The notes under the pieces were generated by a model. The model saw only the letters and a list, made by a program, of their open reading frames with translations. It searched no databases and was not told the DNA's origin. Shown piece by piece: positions 1 to 11,299 of a DNA stretch of 64,000 nt. The stretch's first letter is position 1. Each line of letters opens with the position of its first letter. A program made the translations under genes and the position numbers. Origin of the DNA: a virus; IMG/VR virus record IMGVR_UViG_3300028840_003967, positions 1 through 64,000 of that record. The stretch is one strand, 5' to 3'.

Positions 1-659
1 CGTTGGTTTGAAAACACCTTGTCTTTTTCGGAAAAGATTCCACTCTCCAATATCACCTTTATCGCATCTGGATGGCCGTCAGCGGGTTGGATGAAAACTT
101 CTCTCACAAAGACTTCTTCTTTCAGGATTTCCTCGACTTCCCTCATGTCCTGTTCCGTGCCGACAACGAACTTGAAATAGCAATTCGTCATATAACGGAC
201 CAATGTAGGAAGCGCACTGCGCCTACCGGAGCTAGAGAGTTTCGGAGAAATGATCCATGCGTCAATGCAAACGAAATGTTTCGGATCGCACTTGTCCAGA
301 AGTTCCCCGTTCGTTTCGATTGAAGTCCCGAACGCCGGTTCGATCTCTTTGCAGATTTGAACAATCTGTGGAAGGAAGATAGTAGGCTCACCGCCAGTGA
401 AAACAACATGGCGCTTGTGAAGAGGAAAAGACTTCAAAACAGAAATAACATACTCGACAGATAACGAAAGGTGTTTTGTTTCCGCCTGACTCGGTTTGAT
501 ATTTTCCGGTTTGTAGCCGCTATCGCACCAACTACATGTTCGATTGCATCCAAGAGTCCTCAGAAAAACAGAAGGAAGGCCAACTGTTGGACCTTCCCCG
601 GAAATCGTCTCATAAATTTCATGTACACCAATTTCTTTAGGAGTTCCTTGCCTCCGCAT
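1..659 (-). CDS. queE: 7-carboxy-7-deazaguanine synthase QueE (3' end cut off by the window)
   Basis: Radical-SAM enzyme that converts carboxytetrahydropterin to 7-carboxy-7-deazaguanine, the ring-contraction step of preQ0 synthesis. The frame opens at an ATG at 659 and stays open to base 1, so about 219 residues are visible and the C-terminus is missing. The SAM iron-sulfur motif is CX3CX2C (C38, C42, C45; GCNRTCSWCDSGY), preceded by a GEGPTVG turn typical of QueE. A GGEP motif follows near residue 85. The start overlaps the end of queD by 23 bases, which suggests translational coupling. Family assignment is firm. The lost C-terminus prevents a check of full length. Confidence 0.93.
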   Translation of the reverse strand, partial: MRRQGTPKEIGVHEIYETISGEGPTVGLPSVFLRTLGCNRTCSWCDSGYKPENIKPSQAETKHLSLSVEYVISVLKSFPLHKRHVVFTGGEPTIFLPQIVQICKEIEPAFGTSIETNGELLDKCDPKHFVCIDAWIISPKLSSSGRRSALPTLVRYMTNCYFKFVVGTEQDMREVEEILKEEVFVREVFIQPADGHPDAIKVILESGIFSEKDKVFSNQ

Positions 660-1053
660 AAGATGTATTCGTTTCCCAAACGCGAAGGGAGTCCAGTCTT
701 GCGGATTCATGCTCGAAACACTCCTTCATCTCCGCGAACCAATGAAGCGCCAACACTTCAACCGTAGGGTCTTGATGGATTATGAACACGTGTTCCCTGA
801 AGCCGCCCTCAATGAGAACGCCCGCGAGAGGATCGTCTATTTTGAGAACGACTTTATGATCCCATCTCTCCACGACGTGTTTCAACTTTTTGAGTTCCGC
901 GAAGTCCACCACAAATCCGTTGTCGCCTATGTTGCCGTAGGCCGTCAACTCCACGCGGTAGTTGTGCCCGTGCAAGAAACGACACTTCCCTTCGTGCCGC
1001 ATCAACCTATGGGCGATAGAGAACTCGCCCAAAAATTTCGTTACCTTGACCAT
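637..1053 (-). CDS. queD: 6-carboxy-5,6,7,8-tetrahydropterin synthase QueD
   Basis: Zinc enzyme of the PTPS/QueD family, making 6-carboxytetrahydropterin from dihydroneopterin triphosphate, the FolE product. The 138 residues match the family's usual length. Zinc ligands H15, H28 and H30 (HGHNY motif) and the catalytic Cys24 just before the HGH are all present, as is a downstream WDHK motif with the second catalytic His. The start ATG has GAGGTAA upstream. It lies between a small zinc-knuckle gene and queE in one leftward operon. Nothing looks degraded. Confidence 0.95.
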   Translation of the reverse strand: MVKVTKFLGEFSIAHRLMRHEGKCRFLHGHNYRVELTAYGNIGDNGFVVDFAELKKLKHVVERWDHKVVLKIDDPLAGVLIEGGFREHVFIIHQDPTVEVLALHWFAEMKECFEHESARLDSLRVWETNTSYAEARNS

Positions 1054-2016: not shown

Positions 2017-2583
2017 TCATTTTATGTGCTCCAGGATTTCATCCTTGACTTGCAAACCCGCTTGCCCGAGCACGACGCAGACTTTGGTCGCCGCATGGAT
2101 GTCACCAGTTCCCGTGCATACACACGCATGGTGGGCCTTGGAGAGAACGCAAACGGCTTCAGGTTTGAGCCTTTCTTCAAGCTCTGCGGCGATTCTATGC
2201 GTGAACTCTTCTTGAAGAGTTCCGACCTTCGAGAAGAATTCAACCAACTGTGGAAGTTTCGAGAATCCGACGATGTGTTTTCCTGGTAAATAACCGATTC
2301 CGACTGTCCCATAGAACGGCACGAAGTGATGTTGGCAGATCGATACGAAACAGATGTCTCGCATGACAACGATGTCGTTCCCTCTTGATTTGAACAACTT
2401 GAAGTCGAAAGGTAATCGGTGAGGATAGCGATCATTGATCTTGTCCTTGTTCGCTGTCATCTGTTCAAGCATCTTGACGACACGCCGGGGAGTCTCCAGC
2501 GTTTCGTTCTTCAGCTTTATGCCTAGATGGTGGCACATCCGGGCATAGGCTTTTTCAGCCGATTTACGCTTTCTGGCGTTCAC
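2017..2583 (-). CDS. folE: GTP cyclohydrolase I (FolE)
   Basis: Converts GTP to 7,8-dihydroneopterin triphosphate, the first step toward preQ0 (shared with folate synthesis). At 188 residues it matches bacterial FolE. The zinc-binding CQHH motif sits in SICQHHFVPFYG, and the second metal Cys lies in the HHACVCTGT region. The central substrate-pocket segment (GYLPGKHIVGFSKLPQLVEFF) is also typical. The start is GTG with GGAGGAG upstream, overlapping the end of queC by 20 bases. A phage-borne folE next to queD/queE/queC supplies the pathway without depleting host folate precursors (inference). Confidence 0.96.
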   Translation of the reverse strand: MNARKRKSAEKAYARMCHHLGIKLKNETLETPRRVVKMLEQMTANKDKINDRYPHRLPFDFKLFKSRGNDIVVMRDICFVSICQHHFVPFYGTVGIGYLPGKHIVGFSKLPQLVEFFSKVGTLQEEFTHRIAAELEERLKPEAVCVLSKAHHACVCTGTGDIHAATKVCVVLGQAGLQVKDEILEHIK

Positions 2584-3265
2584 AGAACTCCTCCCAACCC
2601 TTCTTTCGGAGTAAGCAAGCTGGACATTTTCCGCATCCGTGTCCCCAACTGTGTTTGCCTAACCCTGTGTTATAGCAAGTCGCTGTTTCAGTCAAGATGG
2701 TTTCCAGAACGCCCAACTCATCCGCTGCTTCAAAGATGCGCGCCTTCGTCATGTTTATTAACGGCGTGAACAGGCGCACAGTGTTCTTAGGCAATCCCAA
2801 GGCGAAGTTGATAGCGTCTTCACACGCAGCAACAAACTCATAACGGCAATCAGGATAGCCGCTGGAATCCGCTTGGCACACGCCGCTGTAGATGTGCTCT
2901 ATCCCCCGGCTGACGGCCACTCCGGCAGCGATAGAGAAGAACACCATGTTCCGGCCAGGAACAAACGACGTGGGCAATCCCTTGAACCTCTTGCTTTCCT
3001 CGATCTTCTCAAAACTGTACCCTGTCAGAGCGGAATCGAGGAGTGCTCCGTAGTTCTTCAAATCAACGGTGTCGTGCTTGCGGACTTCGAAGATTTTCCC
3101 TATCCGCTTTGCTTGGAGCAGTTCCATCTCATGCCGCTGGCCGTAACAAAAAGACAGAGCATCCACGAACGGATACTTGAAGTTCCGTTTCATCAGCGCA
3201 AGACAGGTTGCCGAATCCTGTCCGCCGGAAAGAAGAATCAGTGCGCCTTTTTGTCCTGATTCCAT
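2564..3265 (-). CDS. queC: 7-cyano-7-deazaguanine synthase QueC
   Basis: ATP-dependent amidation and dehydration of 7-carboxy-7-deazaguanine to preQ0. The PP-loop SGGQDS is at residues 13-18. A conserved FVPGRN segment, the DSSGYPDCR substrate loop and a C-terminal four-cysteine zinc site (CYN...CGKCPAC) complete a canonical QueC. The start chosen is the ATG at 3265 (AGAAGGT about ten bases upstream). The frame is open further upstream, but that part overlaps the neighbouring gene and lacks family features. It overlaps the upstream QueC-like gene by 28 bases, implying coupled translation of the two paralogues. Confidence 0.95.
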   Translation of the reverse strand: MESGQKGALILLSGGQDSATCLALMKRNFKYPFVDALSFCYGQRHEMELLQAKRIGKIFEVRKHDTVDLKNYGALLDSALTGYSFEKIEESKRFKGLPTSFVPGRNMVFFSIAAGVAVSRGIEHIYSGVCQADSSGYPDCRYEFVAACEDAINFALGLPKNTVRLFTPLINMTKARIFEAADELGVLETILTETATCYNTGLGKHSWGHGCGKCPACLLRKKGWEEFCERQKA

Positions 3266-3936
3266 TTCTTGTACACCTTCTGTGCAGAGGTTATCGCGGA
3301 AGCCCGAACCAAACATGCGAGGCACACTTCGCAACCTTTTGGATCGTAGTTGCAGGAATTCGTTTTTTCAAGATCGATGCCGAGACTAAGCGCGAGCAAA
3401 GCAACTTGATGCTTCTGGAATCCGCATTCAAGAAACGGCGCTCGTATCTCGGTGATTTCGTCTTTCGTGAAGCCGCCGACTTCCTGAAGTTCCCGATACG
3501 TGTCAAGGAAAGCGGAAGTGCGATCCGAATGCGGTTCCTCCTCTTCGTGATGGAAACCCACGAACAGGTCCATCTCTTCTATGCTGGCCAAACAAGCGCC
3601 CTGTGTGATGAGGAAAGTGTTCCTTCCGTTGATGTAGTCCTTGGCAATGGAACTGCGTCCAGGTTCTATCTTCTCGCCAAAGCGGAAAATCGGCCCGCCT
3701 TTGACTTCATCTTTCATCGGTATGTCAGCCCTGTGCCTCACCAAGAATCCTCTCCCGAGAACTCCTTGATGATACTCGACGTACTCTATGGACTTTTCTG
3801 TTGTCACTTGCCCGAAGTCAACGACCAAGTTGATGATCCGTTCTTCAGGGTTCACTCCGTACACAAAGGGGTTCTTTGCGATGGCATAGAACAGCGCGGT
3901 AGAATCTAGTCCTCCAGAAGCCAGGATCACGGGCAT
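3238..3936 (-). CDS. Second QueC-family PP-loop ATPase (divergent paralogue)
   Basis: A 232-residue PP-loop protein starting at the ATG at 3936 (AAGGAG seven bases upstream). SGGLDST is at residues 7-13, an INGRNTF block replaces QueC's PGRN, and a C-terminal zinc cluster (CNYDPKGCEVCLAC) has QueC-like spacing. The region between is clearly different from the adjacent queC: HHEEEEPHSDRTSAFLDTY replaces the usual GYPDCR loop. Retained ATP and zinc sites imply a working adenylating amidotransferase-type enzyme on a related deazapurine, but the substrate is unknown. It may act beyond preQ0 or on another carboxylate. A degenerate duplicate is less likely given intact motifs. Confidence 0.85.
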   Translation of the reverse strand: MPVILASGGLDSTALFYAIAKNPFVYGVNPEERIINLVVDFGQVTTEKSIEYVEYHQGVLGRGFLVRHRADIPMKDEVKGGPIFRFGEKIEPGRSSIAKDYINGRNTFLITQGACLASIEEMDLFVGFHHEEEEPHSDRTSAFLDTYRELQEVGGFTKDEITEIRAPFLECGFQKHQVALLALSLGIDLEKTNSCNYDPKGCEVCLACLVRASAITSAQKVYKKWNQDKKAH

Positions 3937-4325
3937 TTTCTTTCTCCTTCCGCTGTGCAACGTATCCTCACACCGCCGCGAGAGTTGAACGTGGTACTCA
4001 CACTCACAGTCAAAGGATCGATGGCTTTCAAGAAGTCATCTCGAATCCTTGCTGTGATGCTTTCCTGAAACGCCTTGAAGTTCCTGTAGCTCCCCAAGTA
4101 CAGCTTCAGCGACTTCGATTCACAGATGCTTTCGAAAGGCGTGTACTGTATGTCGATTGCCCCGAAGTCCGGTTGTCCCGTCACCGGACAGAGAGACGTG
4201 AACTCTTCGAAAGAAATGCAGATACTCGGCGTTGGATGCTTCACTTGGAAAGGAACGCCTACGAGCAAGGATGGCGAATATTCTTCTGGAAACGGAACCA
4301 CTTTGCCGAGCGGGATGTCTTCCAT
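3927..4325 (-). CDS. queF: NADPH-dependent preQ0 reductase QueF (type I)
   Basis: Reduces the nitrile of preQ0 to the aminomethyl of preQ1. The 132 residues match type-I (YkvM-like) QueF. The catalytic Cys46 is in SLCPVTGQPDFG with the general acid Asp53, and the family ESKSLKLYL signature is at residues 69-77. The ATG at 4325 is chosen; a GTG at 4340 in frame is an alternative. It is the first gene of the deazaguanine operon after a hairpin at 4361-4404. Its presence implies that this phage makes preQ1, not only preQ0; whether preQ1 ends up in DNA or tRNA cannot be read from the window. Confidence 0.94.
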   Translation of the reverse strand: MEDIPLGKVVPFPEEYSPSLLVGVPFQVKHPTPSICISFEEFTSLCPVTGQPDFGAIDIQYTPFESICESKSLKLYLGSYRNFKAFQESITARIRDDFLKAIDPLTVSVSTTFNSRGGVRIRCTAEGERKCP

Positions 4326-4350
4326 GGCCGTACCGTCCACTGCGGAGAGT

Positions 4351-5573: not shown

Positions 5574-6065
5574 TCAAGCTCGACTAGAGCGTTCATACTC
5601 GACACTCCTTCTGCTTTGATCGCGGCTCAACGCCTTGGATTTCCGGTCGTAGTTGTCCACTCGCGTTTCAAGGGCGATTTTCATCGCCTCAAGTTCCTCG
5701 CACCTACGGACCAACTTTTGAATCTTCGGATCAAGGTCCATCTCCGCATCCTGTTCGTACTTCTTTTTCCCTCCGCTTGCGAATCGAATCCTCGCCCTTG
5801 CCGTGCGCAAACTTCTTTGCGCACCGATCAACTGGATTCTCGTTTTGGCGAGATGATCGTTGGCATAGGCATACCACGCCACCATAGCCGTGTAAGCTCG
5901 TTGCAGCCTCTTGGGCGGCAGGCGTGTAGGGTCAATCGGCATTTGCGCCGTGCTGTCCTTCGGCTTGTCCGTATCGACGATACCTACAGCGCGAATGCGG
6001 CGCTCCGTTTCTTCGAGGATGGTCCTTTTCTTTTTGCTTTTCGTCCCTTTGCGTTTTTTAACCAT
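5574..6065 (-). CDS. Basic coiled-coil hypothetical protein
   Basis: 163 residues with a Lys-rich start (MVKKRKGTKSKKKR), a Pro-containing middle and a long helical region with heptad-like spacing (residues 105-150), ending in a basic tail. No domain recognised. It overlaps the end of the Cas4-like nuclease by 82 bases, so the two are probably co-translated. A DNA-binding accessory role to that nuclease is only an inference. Confidence 0.65.
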   Translation of the reverse strand: MVKKRKGTKSKKKRTILEETERRIRAVGIVDTDKPKDSTAQMPIDPTRLPPKRLQRAYTAMVAWYAYANDHLAKTRIQLIGAQRSLRTARARIRFASGGKKKYEQDAEMDLDPKIQKLVRRCEELEAMKIALETRVDNYDRKSKALSRDQSRRSVEYERSSRA

Positions 6066-6892
6066 TTCCTTCCCTTTCTCTCATCCCAACAAATGTTGGT
6101 GTAGAAACATCCCTTGCAAGGAAAACGGTGCACAGACTCCCCTTCCCTCTTCGGCAACTTCCGGTTGTCCACGTGGTCACGGAGATAATCCAAACGCTTC
6201 TTCCGTTTCCTTTCGTCGCTCTTGTTGAACTCGAAAAACGTCTCGCGCAACGTTTGATCGTTCTTGTTCTCGTAGATGAACACGGCACGATGAATCTTCA
6301 AGTGCTTCATGTACATGTGAATCTGCTGCTTGTACCCTTCCTTCCCGTAATGCCGTCCAAGGTTCTTGAAGCCGTAGTCATTGATGGATTTGAAATCGAC
6401 GATGTACTTCTTCCCCTTTAGACTCACTATGGCGTCACAGGTTCCTTGTTCATCGCCGACAGTGAAGGGAACTTCGATGTCATCTATCGTACAAAGGCCC
6501 ATTCGGACGAAGAGGACTTGCATTCGCAAGTGAAGCGAATCGCCCGTGGCAAAGATTCGCTGTGACTTGGCGATGTCCGCGATACCACCCATCGGAGGTT
6601 TGTTCTTGGGTGCGCGCATGGATTTGTAGACAGTCCTTCTAGCGCATCCCCCGATAGCGGAAGGATGATAATACTTGTCCCTGTAGTCTTTCTTCGCGGC
6701 CTTCCACTGCTTGAACTTGCGTTCGGCCAATGCCAGTTCGATCTTTGCTTCGGCACGCCGAATGTCAACGTCCGTTATTTCCCGGCGCATGAGGGCCATC
6801 TGTTCATCGTAAAGGAAGCGATCAATGACGTTGATGAACGAGACTTTCCTCTTCTTCATCTTGTTCACGTCTTTCCACAGGTTGCGAAGCAT
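5984..6892 (-). CDS. Cas4/RecB-like PD-(D/E)XK exonuclease with iron-sulfur cysteines
   Basis: 302 residues. After a helical N-terminus comes YHPSAIGGCARR, the first cluster Cys. GTCDAIVSLKGKKYIVDFKS supplies the catalytic D-(x)n-D-x-K, then a QQIHMYM helix (motif QhxxY), and a C-terminal CKGCFYTNIC triplet completes a Cas4-type 4Fe-4S site. The tail is very basic. Phage Cas4-like nucleases usually act in recombination or end processing, which fits the nearby RecA-like gene. The start at 6892 is chosen; an in-frame ATG at 6859 is possible. It overlaps the upstream gene by 71 bases. Confidence 0.85.
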   Translation of the reverse strand: MLRNLWKDVNKMKKRKVSFINVIDRFLYDEQMALMRREITDVDIRRAEAKIELALAERKFKQWKAAKKDYRDKYYHPSAIGGCARRTVYKSMRAPKNKPPMGGIADIAKSQRIFATGDSLHLRMQVLFVRMGLCTIDDIEVPFTVGDEQGTCDAIVSLKGKKYIVDFKSINDYGFKNLGRHYGKEGYKQQIHMYMKHLKIHRAVFIYENKNDQTLRETFFEFNKSDERKRKKRLDYLRDHVDNRKLPKREGESVHRFPCKGCFYTNICWDERKGRKWLKNAKGRKAKRKGPSSKKRSAAFAL

Positions 6893-9845: not shown

Positions 9846-10163
9846 TCATTCTCTAAGTCTCCTTTCTATCGCATCTCGGACAAAATCAAAAGTTGTCTCG
9901 GTCAAAATATAAACATTCACATCTTGAATTTGAATCTCCATGAGCGGTTCCAATCCTTCTTTAGCCGCCCGTTCAATGATCTTCTCGATGTCAGCCTTCT
10001 TCAAGATGATTTGTTTCTTGTCCGTCCTCTTACATTCCGCAAGCCACTGCGGACCTTTCACATCCCCTTTGTTGCGCCATCCGCATCCCGATCCCGGCTG
10101 GACACGCCCGTTCAACTTCTCAGCCAAGCGTTTCTCTTGTTGATCCGATTTCAGCCGCTTCAT
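9846..10163 (-). CDS. PD-(D/E)XK nuclease, Holliday-junction-resolvase-like
   Basis: 105 residues: an N-terminal helix (SDQQEKRLAEKL), a GSGCGWRNKGDV loop with the metal-binding Asp, the LAECKRT strand with the E-x-K pair, and a following helix (IEKIIERAAKEG). This is the minimal order of a small resolvase. It overlaps the RecA-like gene by four bases (ATGA type), so the two are expressed together. This supports a role in resolving recombination intermediates. Confidence 0.72.
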   Translation of the reverse strand: MKRLKSDQQEKRLAEKLNGRVQPGSGCGWRNKGDVKGPQWLAECKRTDKKQIILKKADIEKIIERAAKEGLEPLMEIQIQDVNVYILTETTFDFVRDAIERRLRE

Positions 10164-11269
10164 AGCGCGAACGCCTTTCTGTTCTTCTTCTGCCGCTTTT
10201 TCGCTTTATCCCCGGTGCGCTTCAGTTGGAGTTTTCCTTTGTGTACCTTCATCACATCGTTGTACAAGTCCTGCAAGACGTACTTGTCCATGTAGATTTT
10301 CTTGCAGAACTTCTCTCTCCCGTTGGCCTTGATCCCCTGATAGGAGTAGGCGTGTCCCTTCTTTCGGACAATCCCGTATACCACGGCCATGGGAAGAAGG
10401 TCAAGCGCATTGTCGATGGTTCCCCCTTCCCGGTATCCATATGCCCGATTGTAGAAGTTGAAGAATCCCCGTTCGTTCGCGTTGCCGCCGGTCTTGTTCT
10501 TCACAACGACGAATCCCACCGTTGTTCCCACGGCCTGTTTCAACGTCTCCCCGCTTTCCTTGATTTCCTCATAGATGTAGCCTTTGCGGTACAGCTTCAC
10601 GCAGACAGATGCCGCGTGTTCAAGCGCCTTTCCCCCCGGTGCCGTTTCAGGATCGCCGAACATCACGCCGATTTGAACACGGACTTGATTCAACAAAAGG
10701 ATGGTCGATTTCGGCGTAGAAGAAAGCAAATCCTTCTTCAATCGCGGAATCAGCTTACGCAGCATCTTGGACACGAAACGCGGGTGCATCCCGACACTGC
10801 TTTTCTCCATCTTCTTCTCGACTTCGAAGTGCGGTGTGATAGCACCGATGGAATCGAAGATCACCAAGACTTGATCCCCCTCGTCCAACACATCGCAAAC
10901 GATGTCCACGGACTGTTCGCTTGTCGTCGGCGACACGAGAAGGAACTTGTTCGGATCGGCGTCGAGGAACTTCAACCACTTCACATCGAAAGCGTTCTCC
11001 ACATCGATGTAGACAACGTACCGCTTCTTAGGCTCTTTCTTGATGAACTTCGTGGCTCCGCAAATAGCGAGCGTGCTTTTATACGCGCTGTAGTGTCCTA
11101 TGACTTCGTTTATCCGGCCTTCCACGAAGCCCCCGCCTAGAGCAATATCAAGGGAATGGCTCCCTGTGCTGAAACGCTTGATCGTCAATCCAAGTGCATC
11201 GCTGGCACGGACGATTGTTCCCCTACCGTAGCGTTTATTTATGCGGTTCATCACAGTCTCTATCGACAT
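10160..11269 (-). CDS. RecA/UvsX-like recombinase
   Basis: 369 residues from the ATG at 11269 (AAAGGGG upstream). After an N-terminal helix, GTIVRASDALGLTIKRFSTG leads into the ATPase core. Walker A is GHYSAYKST, with an aromatic in place of the second Gly as in T4 UvsX-type proteins. Walker B lies in QVLVIFDSIG, followed by an L1/L2-like region and a LLNQVRVQIG segment (motif with the sensor Gln). The C-terminus is very basic. It catalyses strand exchange during recombination-dependent replication and repair, with the resolvase gene directly downstream. Confidence 0.9.
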   Translation of the reverse strand: MSIETVMNRINKRYGRGTIVRASDALGLTIKRFSTGSHSLDIALGGGFVEGRINEVIGHYSAYKSTLAICGATKFIKKEPKKRYVVYIDVENAFDVKWLKFLDADPNKFLLVSPTTSEQSVDIVCDVLDEGDQVLVIFDSIGAITPHFEVEKKMEKSSVGMHPRFVSKMLRKLIPRLKKDLLSSTPKSTILLLNQVRVQIGVMFGDPETAPGGKALEHAASVCVKLYRKGYIYEEIKESGETLKQAVGTTVGFVVVKNKTGGNANERGFFNFYNRAYGYREGGTIDNALDLLPMAVVYGIVRKKGHAYSYQGIKANGREKFCKKIYMDKYVLQDLYNDVMKVHKGKLQLKRTGDKAKKRQKKNRKAFAL

Positions 11270-11299
11270 CACGCTATCCCCTTTCTAAGAGAAACGAGT

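Follow-up and report, generated by a model that had tools for sequence, protein, structure and literature searches.

The window analyzed here is a 64-kb stretch of a 75.8-kb phage contig from IMG/VR. A second contig, IMGVR_UViG_3300018080_000165 (76.1 kb), was identical to that contig over the overlap tested and runs ∼19.7 kb past the left end of the window; the phage genome is at least 95 kb long and is not closed. On the minus strand of the window, the genes lie in the order QueF, QueC2, QueC1, FolE, two small open reading frames (ORFs), QueD, and QueE, where QueC1 and QueC2 denote two neighboring QueC-family proteins (Table 1). The entire QueE is found at L003:11227-12042. Overlaps within the QueF-QueC2-QueC1-FolE block are 10, 28, and 20 nt. 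QueF, for which an alternative GTG start is possible at 4340, overlaps QueC2 by the first of these and retains CPVTGQPD and ESKSLKLYLGSYRN.

A sequence-only reading of this DNA had drawn attention to two adjoining, overlapping QueC-family ORFs. It was right about their coordinates and their overlap, which measures 28 nt, and both proteins score above the Pfam QueC (PF06508) cutoff of 22 bits. Its description of the first gene as a canonical QueC also held: QueC1 scored 202.9 bits against TIGR00364, above the equivalog cutoff of 150.3 bits, and clustered with Escherichia coli and Bacillus subtilis QueC at 100/99 in a tree without QueC2 relatives. QueC2 scored 51.2 bits, below that cutoff; since it passes the Pfam cutoff but not this one, QueC2 is a genuine but divergent member of the family.

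Both genes start with ATG (QueC1 at 3265 and QueC2 at 3936, minus strand). Translational coupling between them is likely, though it would be dispensable for translation of QueC2 because this gene has its own strong Shine-Dalgarno sequence, GGAAGGAGAAAGAAAATG. The suggestion that the two proteins act jointly gains support from the overlapping genes, from a block that consists wholly of pathway genes, and from the canonical QueC that stands beside all five QueC2-type genes described below.

Eight predicted proteins of the phage, one of them a RecA/UvsX-like recombinase, end in a mostly basic stretch and then F[AS][FL] (FAF, FAL, or FSF); this common tail may serve in clamp binding or sorting. 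The phage also encodes a DUF1643 protein (L010:12019-12606, plus strand; G000 72019-72606) as well as UDG-type, sulfotransferase, and intein-containing genes.

Table 1. Coordinates of genes and motifs in the window and of F[AS][FL]-tail proteins of the same phage
Feature	Position	Strand	Evidence or remark
QueE	1..710 (cut by window start)	-	phrog_2076 115 bits, Radical_SAM
QueD	637..1053	-	PF01242 104.9 bits, phrog_2389
FolE, GTP cyclohydrolase I	2017..2583	-	PF01227 134.5 bits; 20-nt overlap with QueC1
QueC1, canonical 7-cyano-7-deazaguanine synthase, 233 aa	2564..3265	-	Pfam 218 bits, TIGR00364 203 bits
QueC2, divergent QueC-family protein, 232 aa	3238..3936	-	PF06508 79 bits, TIGR00364 51 bits, AF2 pLDDT 88.8
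QueC2 zinc site CNYDPKGCEVCLAC, residues 195-208	3313..3354	-	all four Cys retained
QueC2 GGF motif, residues 154-156	3469..3477	-	common to 4/5 clade members
QueC2 altered substrate loop GFHHEEEEPHSDRTSAF, residues 127-143	3508..3558	-	alignment
QueC2 GRN, residues 104-106, VPxRN counterpart without VP	3619..3627	-	R105 = E. coli R99
QueC2 PP-loop SGGLDS, residues 7-12	3901..3918	-	invariant across all aligned members
QueF, preQ0 reductase type	3927..4325	-	TIGR03139 QueF-II 116.5 bits (cutoff 86.9)
F[AS][FL]-tail proteins, window	5984-6892, 10160-11272	-	
F[AS][FL]-tail proteins, L017	5311-5766, 6918-7274, 7584-8387, 14616-15440, 16361-16690, 8194-8730	-	

Active site and predicted fold of QueC2

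Residues were counted in a common alignment of five QueC2-type proteins (QueC2 and four relatives) and 45 canonical rows, and residue numbers such as Arg99, Tyr131, and Asp133 follow E. coli QueC. The S/D/S of the PP-loop, Arg99, Lys165, and the four zinc cysteines (spaced C(x)6CxxCxxC in QueC2) were retained in all five QueC2-type proteins, and the sequence-only reading was correct that the second gene keeps its PP-loop, SGGLDS, and the four cysteines of its zinc site. Asp133 was retained in at least four of the five, QueC2 included; in the fifth protein (L212), this position is D or N, varying with the alignment. In Cap9, this Asp recognizes the Watson-Crick edge of the base, and its location in QueC is the same (PMC13279940).

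QueC2 has INGRN for VPxRN and HSDR for YPDC, motifs whose P, R, N, Y, D, and C are present in 45 of 45 canonical rows. Across the five QueC2-type proteins, Pro97 was altered throughout, Tyr131 was replaced by H, H, V, G, and G, Cys134 was replaced by R, T, D, T, and T, and the Tyr189 column held N, E, V, E, and E; each of these residues is kept in every canonical row. In QueC2, N196 lies at the Tyr189 position, and Y197 may substitute for it with a one-residue shift in one alignment (SC-N-YDP versus SC-YDP). The loop GFHHEEEEPHSDRTSAF stands where canonical proteins have GVCQADSSGYPDCRYEF, with H136 for Y131, D138 equivalent to D133, and R139 for C134. This loop had been read as a replacement of the substrate loop by an acidic/His stretch. 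The different loop is there, but it keeps the CDG-recognizing Asp (D138) and is therefore an altered loop and not a replaced one; the acidic/His string is present in QueC2 but is not shared by the relatives found.

Overall, QueC2 shares with canonical QueC (PF06508 cluster 1, TIGR00364) the fold, SGGxDS, the four zinc cysteines, Arg99, Asp133, and Lys165, but it has neither YPDC nor the VP of VPxRN, its YxQxH motif is without the His, Tyr189 is probably missing, and it gains GGF and PF(x)6K. In E. coli QueC, the substitutions Y35A, R99A, Y131A, and Y189A abolish queuosine formation, and Y131F is partly active, according to PMC13329287. Because residues that are essential in E. coli (Y131 and Y189, the latter possibly shifted) are changed, QueC2 should not form preQ0 by the usual route, yet it looks like a working adenylating enzyme. 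The different activity proposed for it is plausible, given that Y131 and Y189 are changed while the ATP and zinc sites and the Arg and Lys are intact, and nothing in the protein points to a catalytically dead enzyme.

The AF2 model of QueC2 had a pLDDT of 88.8 and a pTM of 0.88. In a Foldseek search against the PDB, the top match was Cap9 with a modified CD-NTase (9nto_B; E, 3.5e-10; TMt, 0.83), and QueC came next (4.9e-9). A control AF2 model made with canonical QueC rows only left this order unchanged (Cap9, 8.4e-10, TMt 0.82; QueC, 1e-8). We therefore lean toward Cap9, the protein deazaguanylase of type IV CBASS, as the solved structure nearest to QueC2; the ranking is a lean and not a proof because TM-scores normalized by QueC2 length are alike for Cap9 and QueC (0.62 to 0.68). 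Profile scores of QueC2 were 65.7 for canonical QueC, 48.5 for the Cap9-like group, and 48.9 for the NDT-linked group. A PADLOC QueC match (PDLC00911) was rejected as evidence for Cap9, since canonical QueCs from other genomes match it better.

Cap9 (9NTO) and QueC2 share GRN without VP, FGQ, and the loss of His from the YxQxH motif, and in neither is the first zinc Cys followed directly by Tyr, a position where Cap9 and three clade members have Glu. However, the published Cap9 signature, H(x)4YxDCxxxF and CE(x)6CxxCxxCxD, does not occur in QueC2 (HSDR and CN(x)5C), which has His-Ser-Asp-Arg for Tyr-x-Asp-Cys, Asn for Glu after the first Cys, and a longer loop. QueC2 also differs in lying in a phage biosynthetic operon, where its neighbors are QueF, QueC1, and FolE and not a CD-NTase.

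QueC2 relatives and their gene neighborhoods

Single-protein and fixed-spacing scans of IMG/VR returned only the phage of the window, but the view of QueC2 as a singleton was overturned by alignment-based scans, which found related proteins on four phage contigs: L143 (3300033067), L205 (3300045806), L144 (3300043400), and L212 (3300003873). A profile of three proteins (QueC2, L143, and L144) gave 235 bits for L205, which was outside the profile, and 75 bits for L212, with canonical proteins at 30 to 71 bits. In the tree, QueC2 falls outside ordinary QueC; the five QueC2-type proteins made up one side of a branch at 94/94 (with L144), four of them were held together at 97/85, and a tree holding QueC1 and QueC2 together was rejected (p-AU 0.0002). 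Early trees without the relatives left QueC2 unplaced; one early tree paired it with Cap9 at 86/68, and the two came apart once real clade members were added. QueC2 is not a recent copy of QueC1, nor is it peculiar to one phage.

The relatives have in common [AG]F[QH], GGF, PF(x)6K, and the loss of YPDC. Four of the five clade members have GGF, a two-residue insertion, and PF(x)6K; L212 is without GGF and the insertion and, as the most distant protein, appears to be the least certain member. We propose to recognize the clade by GR[NQ] without VP, GGF, PF(x)6K, a residue other than aromatic Tyr/Phe at Y131, and an adjacent canonical QueC. QueC2 fits this description, and the full set of motifs is common to four of the five members. 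It is important to note that the clade comprises five members only, all from metagenomic fragments, and that L143 and L205 are close relatives. Phylum-level genome searches for QueC2 relatives or Cap9 gave nothing useful, and no clade member was recognized among INPHARED phages by tblastn. A likeness of HEE..D.TSAFL to Rhizobium TIR-TGT/Ogg/QueC-like proteins was rejected as a sign of kinship, as the clade does not retain this stretch and the profile scores given above do not favor that group. QueC2 apparently belongs to a small, old, and undescribed phage paralog group. A second QueC beside a canonical one in phages is not described in the open-licence literature searched, including the accessible parts of PMC13329287, which sorts PF06508 into clusters, and PMC6884629, which surveys phage QueC and Gat-QueC.

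Each of the five clade records contains two PF06508 genes and no more, a canonical one and a divergent one. By comparison, 64 of 67 viral QueC loci had a single QueC within the stretch examined (the set as it stood before the last scan), the exceptions being L143, L144, and L148. The last of these, L148:5982-7668, is a phage contig whose second QueC gene has YPDT and CY and, judged by motif, is not a member of the QueC2 clade. At least three QueC lineages are represented among the canonical partners: those of L143 and L205 belong together, QueC1 and the L144 partner are near E. coli QueC, and the L212 partner goes with mycobacteriophage Knocker. Because the partners belong to different lineages, the pairing outlives partner replacement; it has been maintained or re-established with QueCs that are unrelated, and this speaks for a functional link.

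The neighborhoods themselves vary. The QueC2-type gene and the canonical QueC are separated by other genes in L143 and L205. In L143, L205, and L212, an ArcS-type DUF5591 gene with PCAADKPYPSxxH adjoins QueC2 or QueC; the L205 protein scored 21.8 bits, under the Pfam cutoff of 26 bits, and is supported by the motif and by 39% identity to the L143 protein. L144 has QueC2-QueC followed by a DpdA-like gene (phrog_887, 2e-11), whereas no DpdA-like gene was found in the L143, L205, and L212 fragments. In the window, the neighbor of QueC2 is QueF.

We also observed a second divergent type of phage QueC (L206:5947-6786, L209, L213, L215, L216, and L217) that has IPGRN, no YPDC, and a length of ∼250 to 300 aa. 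It is a distinct clade (100/100 for three), is the sole QueC in several records, and in L213, L215, and L216 has a TGT/DpdA-like gene close by. In Achromobacter phage Motura (L137, 4540-10576), a QueC-like gene with PFPDA for YPDC lies by an asparagine-synthetase-type gene and a TGT, an arrangement that looks like a split Gat plus QueC. Rhizobium plasmids (L006:1891-5053 and L004) carry an operon for a TIR-TGT-like fusion, an Ogg-type glycosylase, a QueC-like protein, and another TIR protein; it resembles a 7-deazaguanine defense variant related to CBASS.

DpdA, related systems, and the role of QueC2

Within the window's record, no DpdA was found by Pfam TGT (PF01702), by a search with phage 9g DpdA, or by PADLOC TGT. 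Nevertheless, the same phage has a DpdA on the overlapping contig, on the minus strand ∼15 kb left of the window (L017:3162-4451), with E values of 2.7e-41 for phrog_887 and 2.1e-43 in another search and with tblastn matches to the DpdA of phages 9g (2e-9) and Knocker (1e-9). We thus rejected the absence of DpdA from this phage: the PF01702 miss on the overlapping contig is a false negative that tblastn and PHROG reveal, and absence calls for DpdA that rest on Pfam TGT need care. Separate from this gene but nearby, L017:446-1516 (minus strand) matches the DpdA PHROG profile over C-terminal positions 354-479 (E, 2e-12). Phage Dp-1, with DpdA and QueF/QueF-L, carries dPreQ1, and the ArcS phage nt-1 carries dPreQ0, dADG, and dG+. 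Because of these known DpdA/QueF/ArcS phage pathways, the DNA of the window's phage is predicted to carry dPreQ0 and/or dPreQ1.

The phage systems with ArcS, QueF/QueF-L, or Gat-QueC covered in PMC6884629 likewise have FolE, QueD, QueE, QueC, and DpdA plus a nitrile-acting enzyme, which here is QueF in the window's phage and the ArcS-like protein in three relatives; the difference from those systems is the extra divergent QueC. Gat-QueC (phage 9g and archaea) is also a QueC-fold enzyme used with DpdA, for dG+ modification of DNA, but QueC2, at 232 aa and beginning at its PP-loop, is without the glutamine amidotransferase domain, and a separate canonical QueC is present. QatC of the qatABCD defense system likewise has a QueC fold with an altered CDG pocket; it has N- and C-terminal extensions to ∼400 aa and a C(x)19CGxC zinc variant, in contrast to the 232 aa and C(x)6C of QueC2, and QueC2 gave no QatC match.

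QueC adenylates CDG and then uses ammonia, and Cap9 adenylates CDG and then uses a protein N-terminus. Our view, held with about even confidence, is that the 7-deazaguanine pathway for the phage DNA may have in QueC2 a second ATP-dependent enzyme with the QueC fold, predicted from its residues to be active, concerned with a different C7 substituent and not a preQ0 synthase. QueC1, FolE, QueD, QueE, and QueF would supply preQ0 and preQ1, and the DpdA-type transglycosylase would insert 7-deazaguanine into DNA. QueC2 would adenylate a 7-deazaguanine (CDG, ADG, or a DNA-bound form) at its C7 carboxylate or amide, as QueC does, and its remodeled pocket would deliver the activated group to another nucleophile in place of free ammonia; alternatively, it may take a base that already bears another C7 group. 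The different C7 substituent, added beside or after preQ0, would thus come from adenylation with a remodeled pocket and another nucleophile or another base. The adenylation residues are kept and the pocket around the base and nucleophile is changed; QueC-type activation with another acceptor or another 7-deazaguanine, beside preQ0-consuming enzymes, is the most economical reading. Genes that act on the same intermediates accompany the clade, namely, ArcS-like DUF5591 (in three), DpdA-like (L144), and QueF (window).

Since Cap9, the closest solved structure, acts on protein, the acceptor of QueC2 could also be a protein. We consider it unlikely that QueC2 works as Cap9 does, with CDG as the source of a 7-deazaguanine that is attached to the N-terminus of a protein, from phage or host, and not made as a base for DNA. 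Cap9 leads the Foldseek ranking for both AF2 models, one of them made without Cap9-like alignment rows, the two proteins share motif losses (the VP before GRN, the YxQxH His, and the Tyr after the first zinc Cys), and one tree pairs them. Against this, the Cap9 signature is absent from QueC2, Cap9 leaves QueC2 once clade members join the tree, and the neighbors are pathway genes and not a CD-NTase; moreover, just two ORFs have an MG[GST][GSTA] start, neither convincing as a partner. The resemblance to Cap9 in the predicted structure would also suit a counter-defense decoy that competes with Cap9 or QatC for CDG or the protein partner, but we regard this as highly improbable given a biosynthetic operon whose ArcS-like, DpdA-like, or QueF neighbors are not anti-defense genes.

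Retention of the fold, PP-loop, zinc site, Arg99, Asp133, and Lys165, in an operon shared with preQ0 genes, might instead indicate a partial-reaction or redundant preQ0 enzyme, which, for example, stops at 7-amido-7-deazaguanine (ADG) or raises the preQ0 supply. This too seems improbable: Tyr131 and Cys134 are changed in five of five proteins, Tyr189 is changed or shifted, and a full QueC is always alongside, so that a duplicate activity is hard to explain over five phages. There is a still smaller chance that QueC2 is a non-catalytic or regulatory heterodimer partner that channels or tunes the QueC1 product. Gene overlap and constant pairing fit such a partner, but the PP-loop, zinc, and Lys/Arg residues are strictly retained in all five proteins, unlike in a decayed subunit, the canonical QueCs are of unrelated lineages, and in L143 and L205 genes intervene.

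Returning to QueC2 as an active enzyme of DNA modification, it is possible, and we say so only tentatively, that QueC2 enzymes make a 7-deazaguanine with an undescribed C7 group, inserted by DpdA or built on the phage DNA. Such a base might be, for instance, an amide-linked conjugate, formed when adenylated carboxy-deazaguanine is transferred to an amine. Recent work has shown that immunity systems redeploy QueC-fold enzymes to modify proteins. A phage subfamily whose members invariably occur with a normal QueC, and with ArcS-like, DpdA-like, or QueF genes, would point to an unassigned step of phage DNA modification, and QueC2 plus DUF5591 and QueC2 plus QueF are small gene sets in which this step is directly testable.
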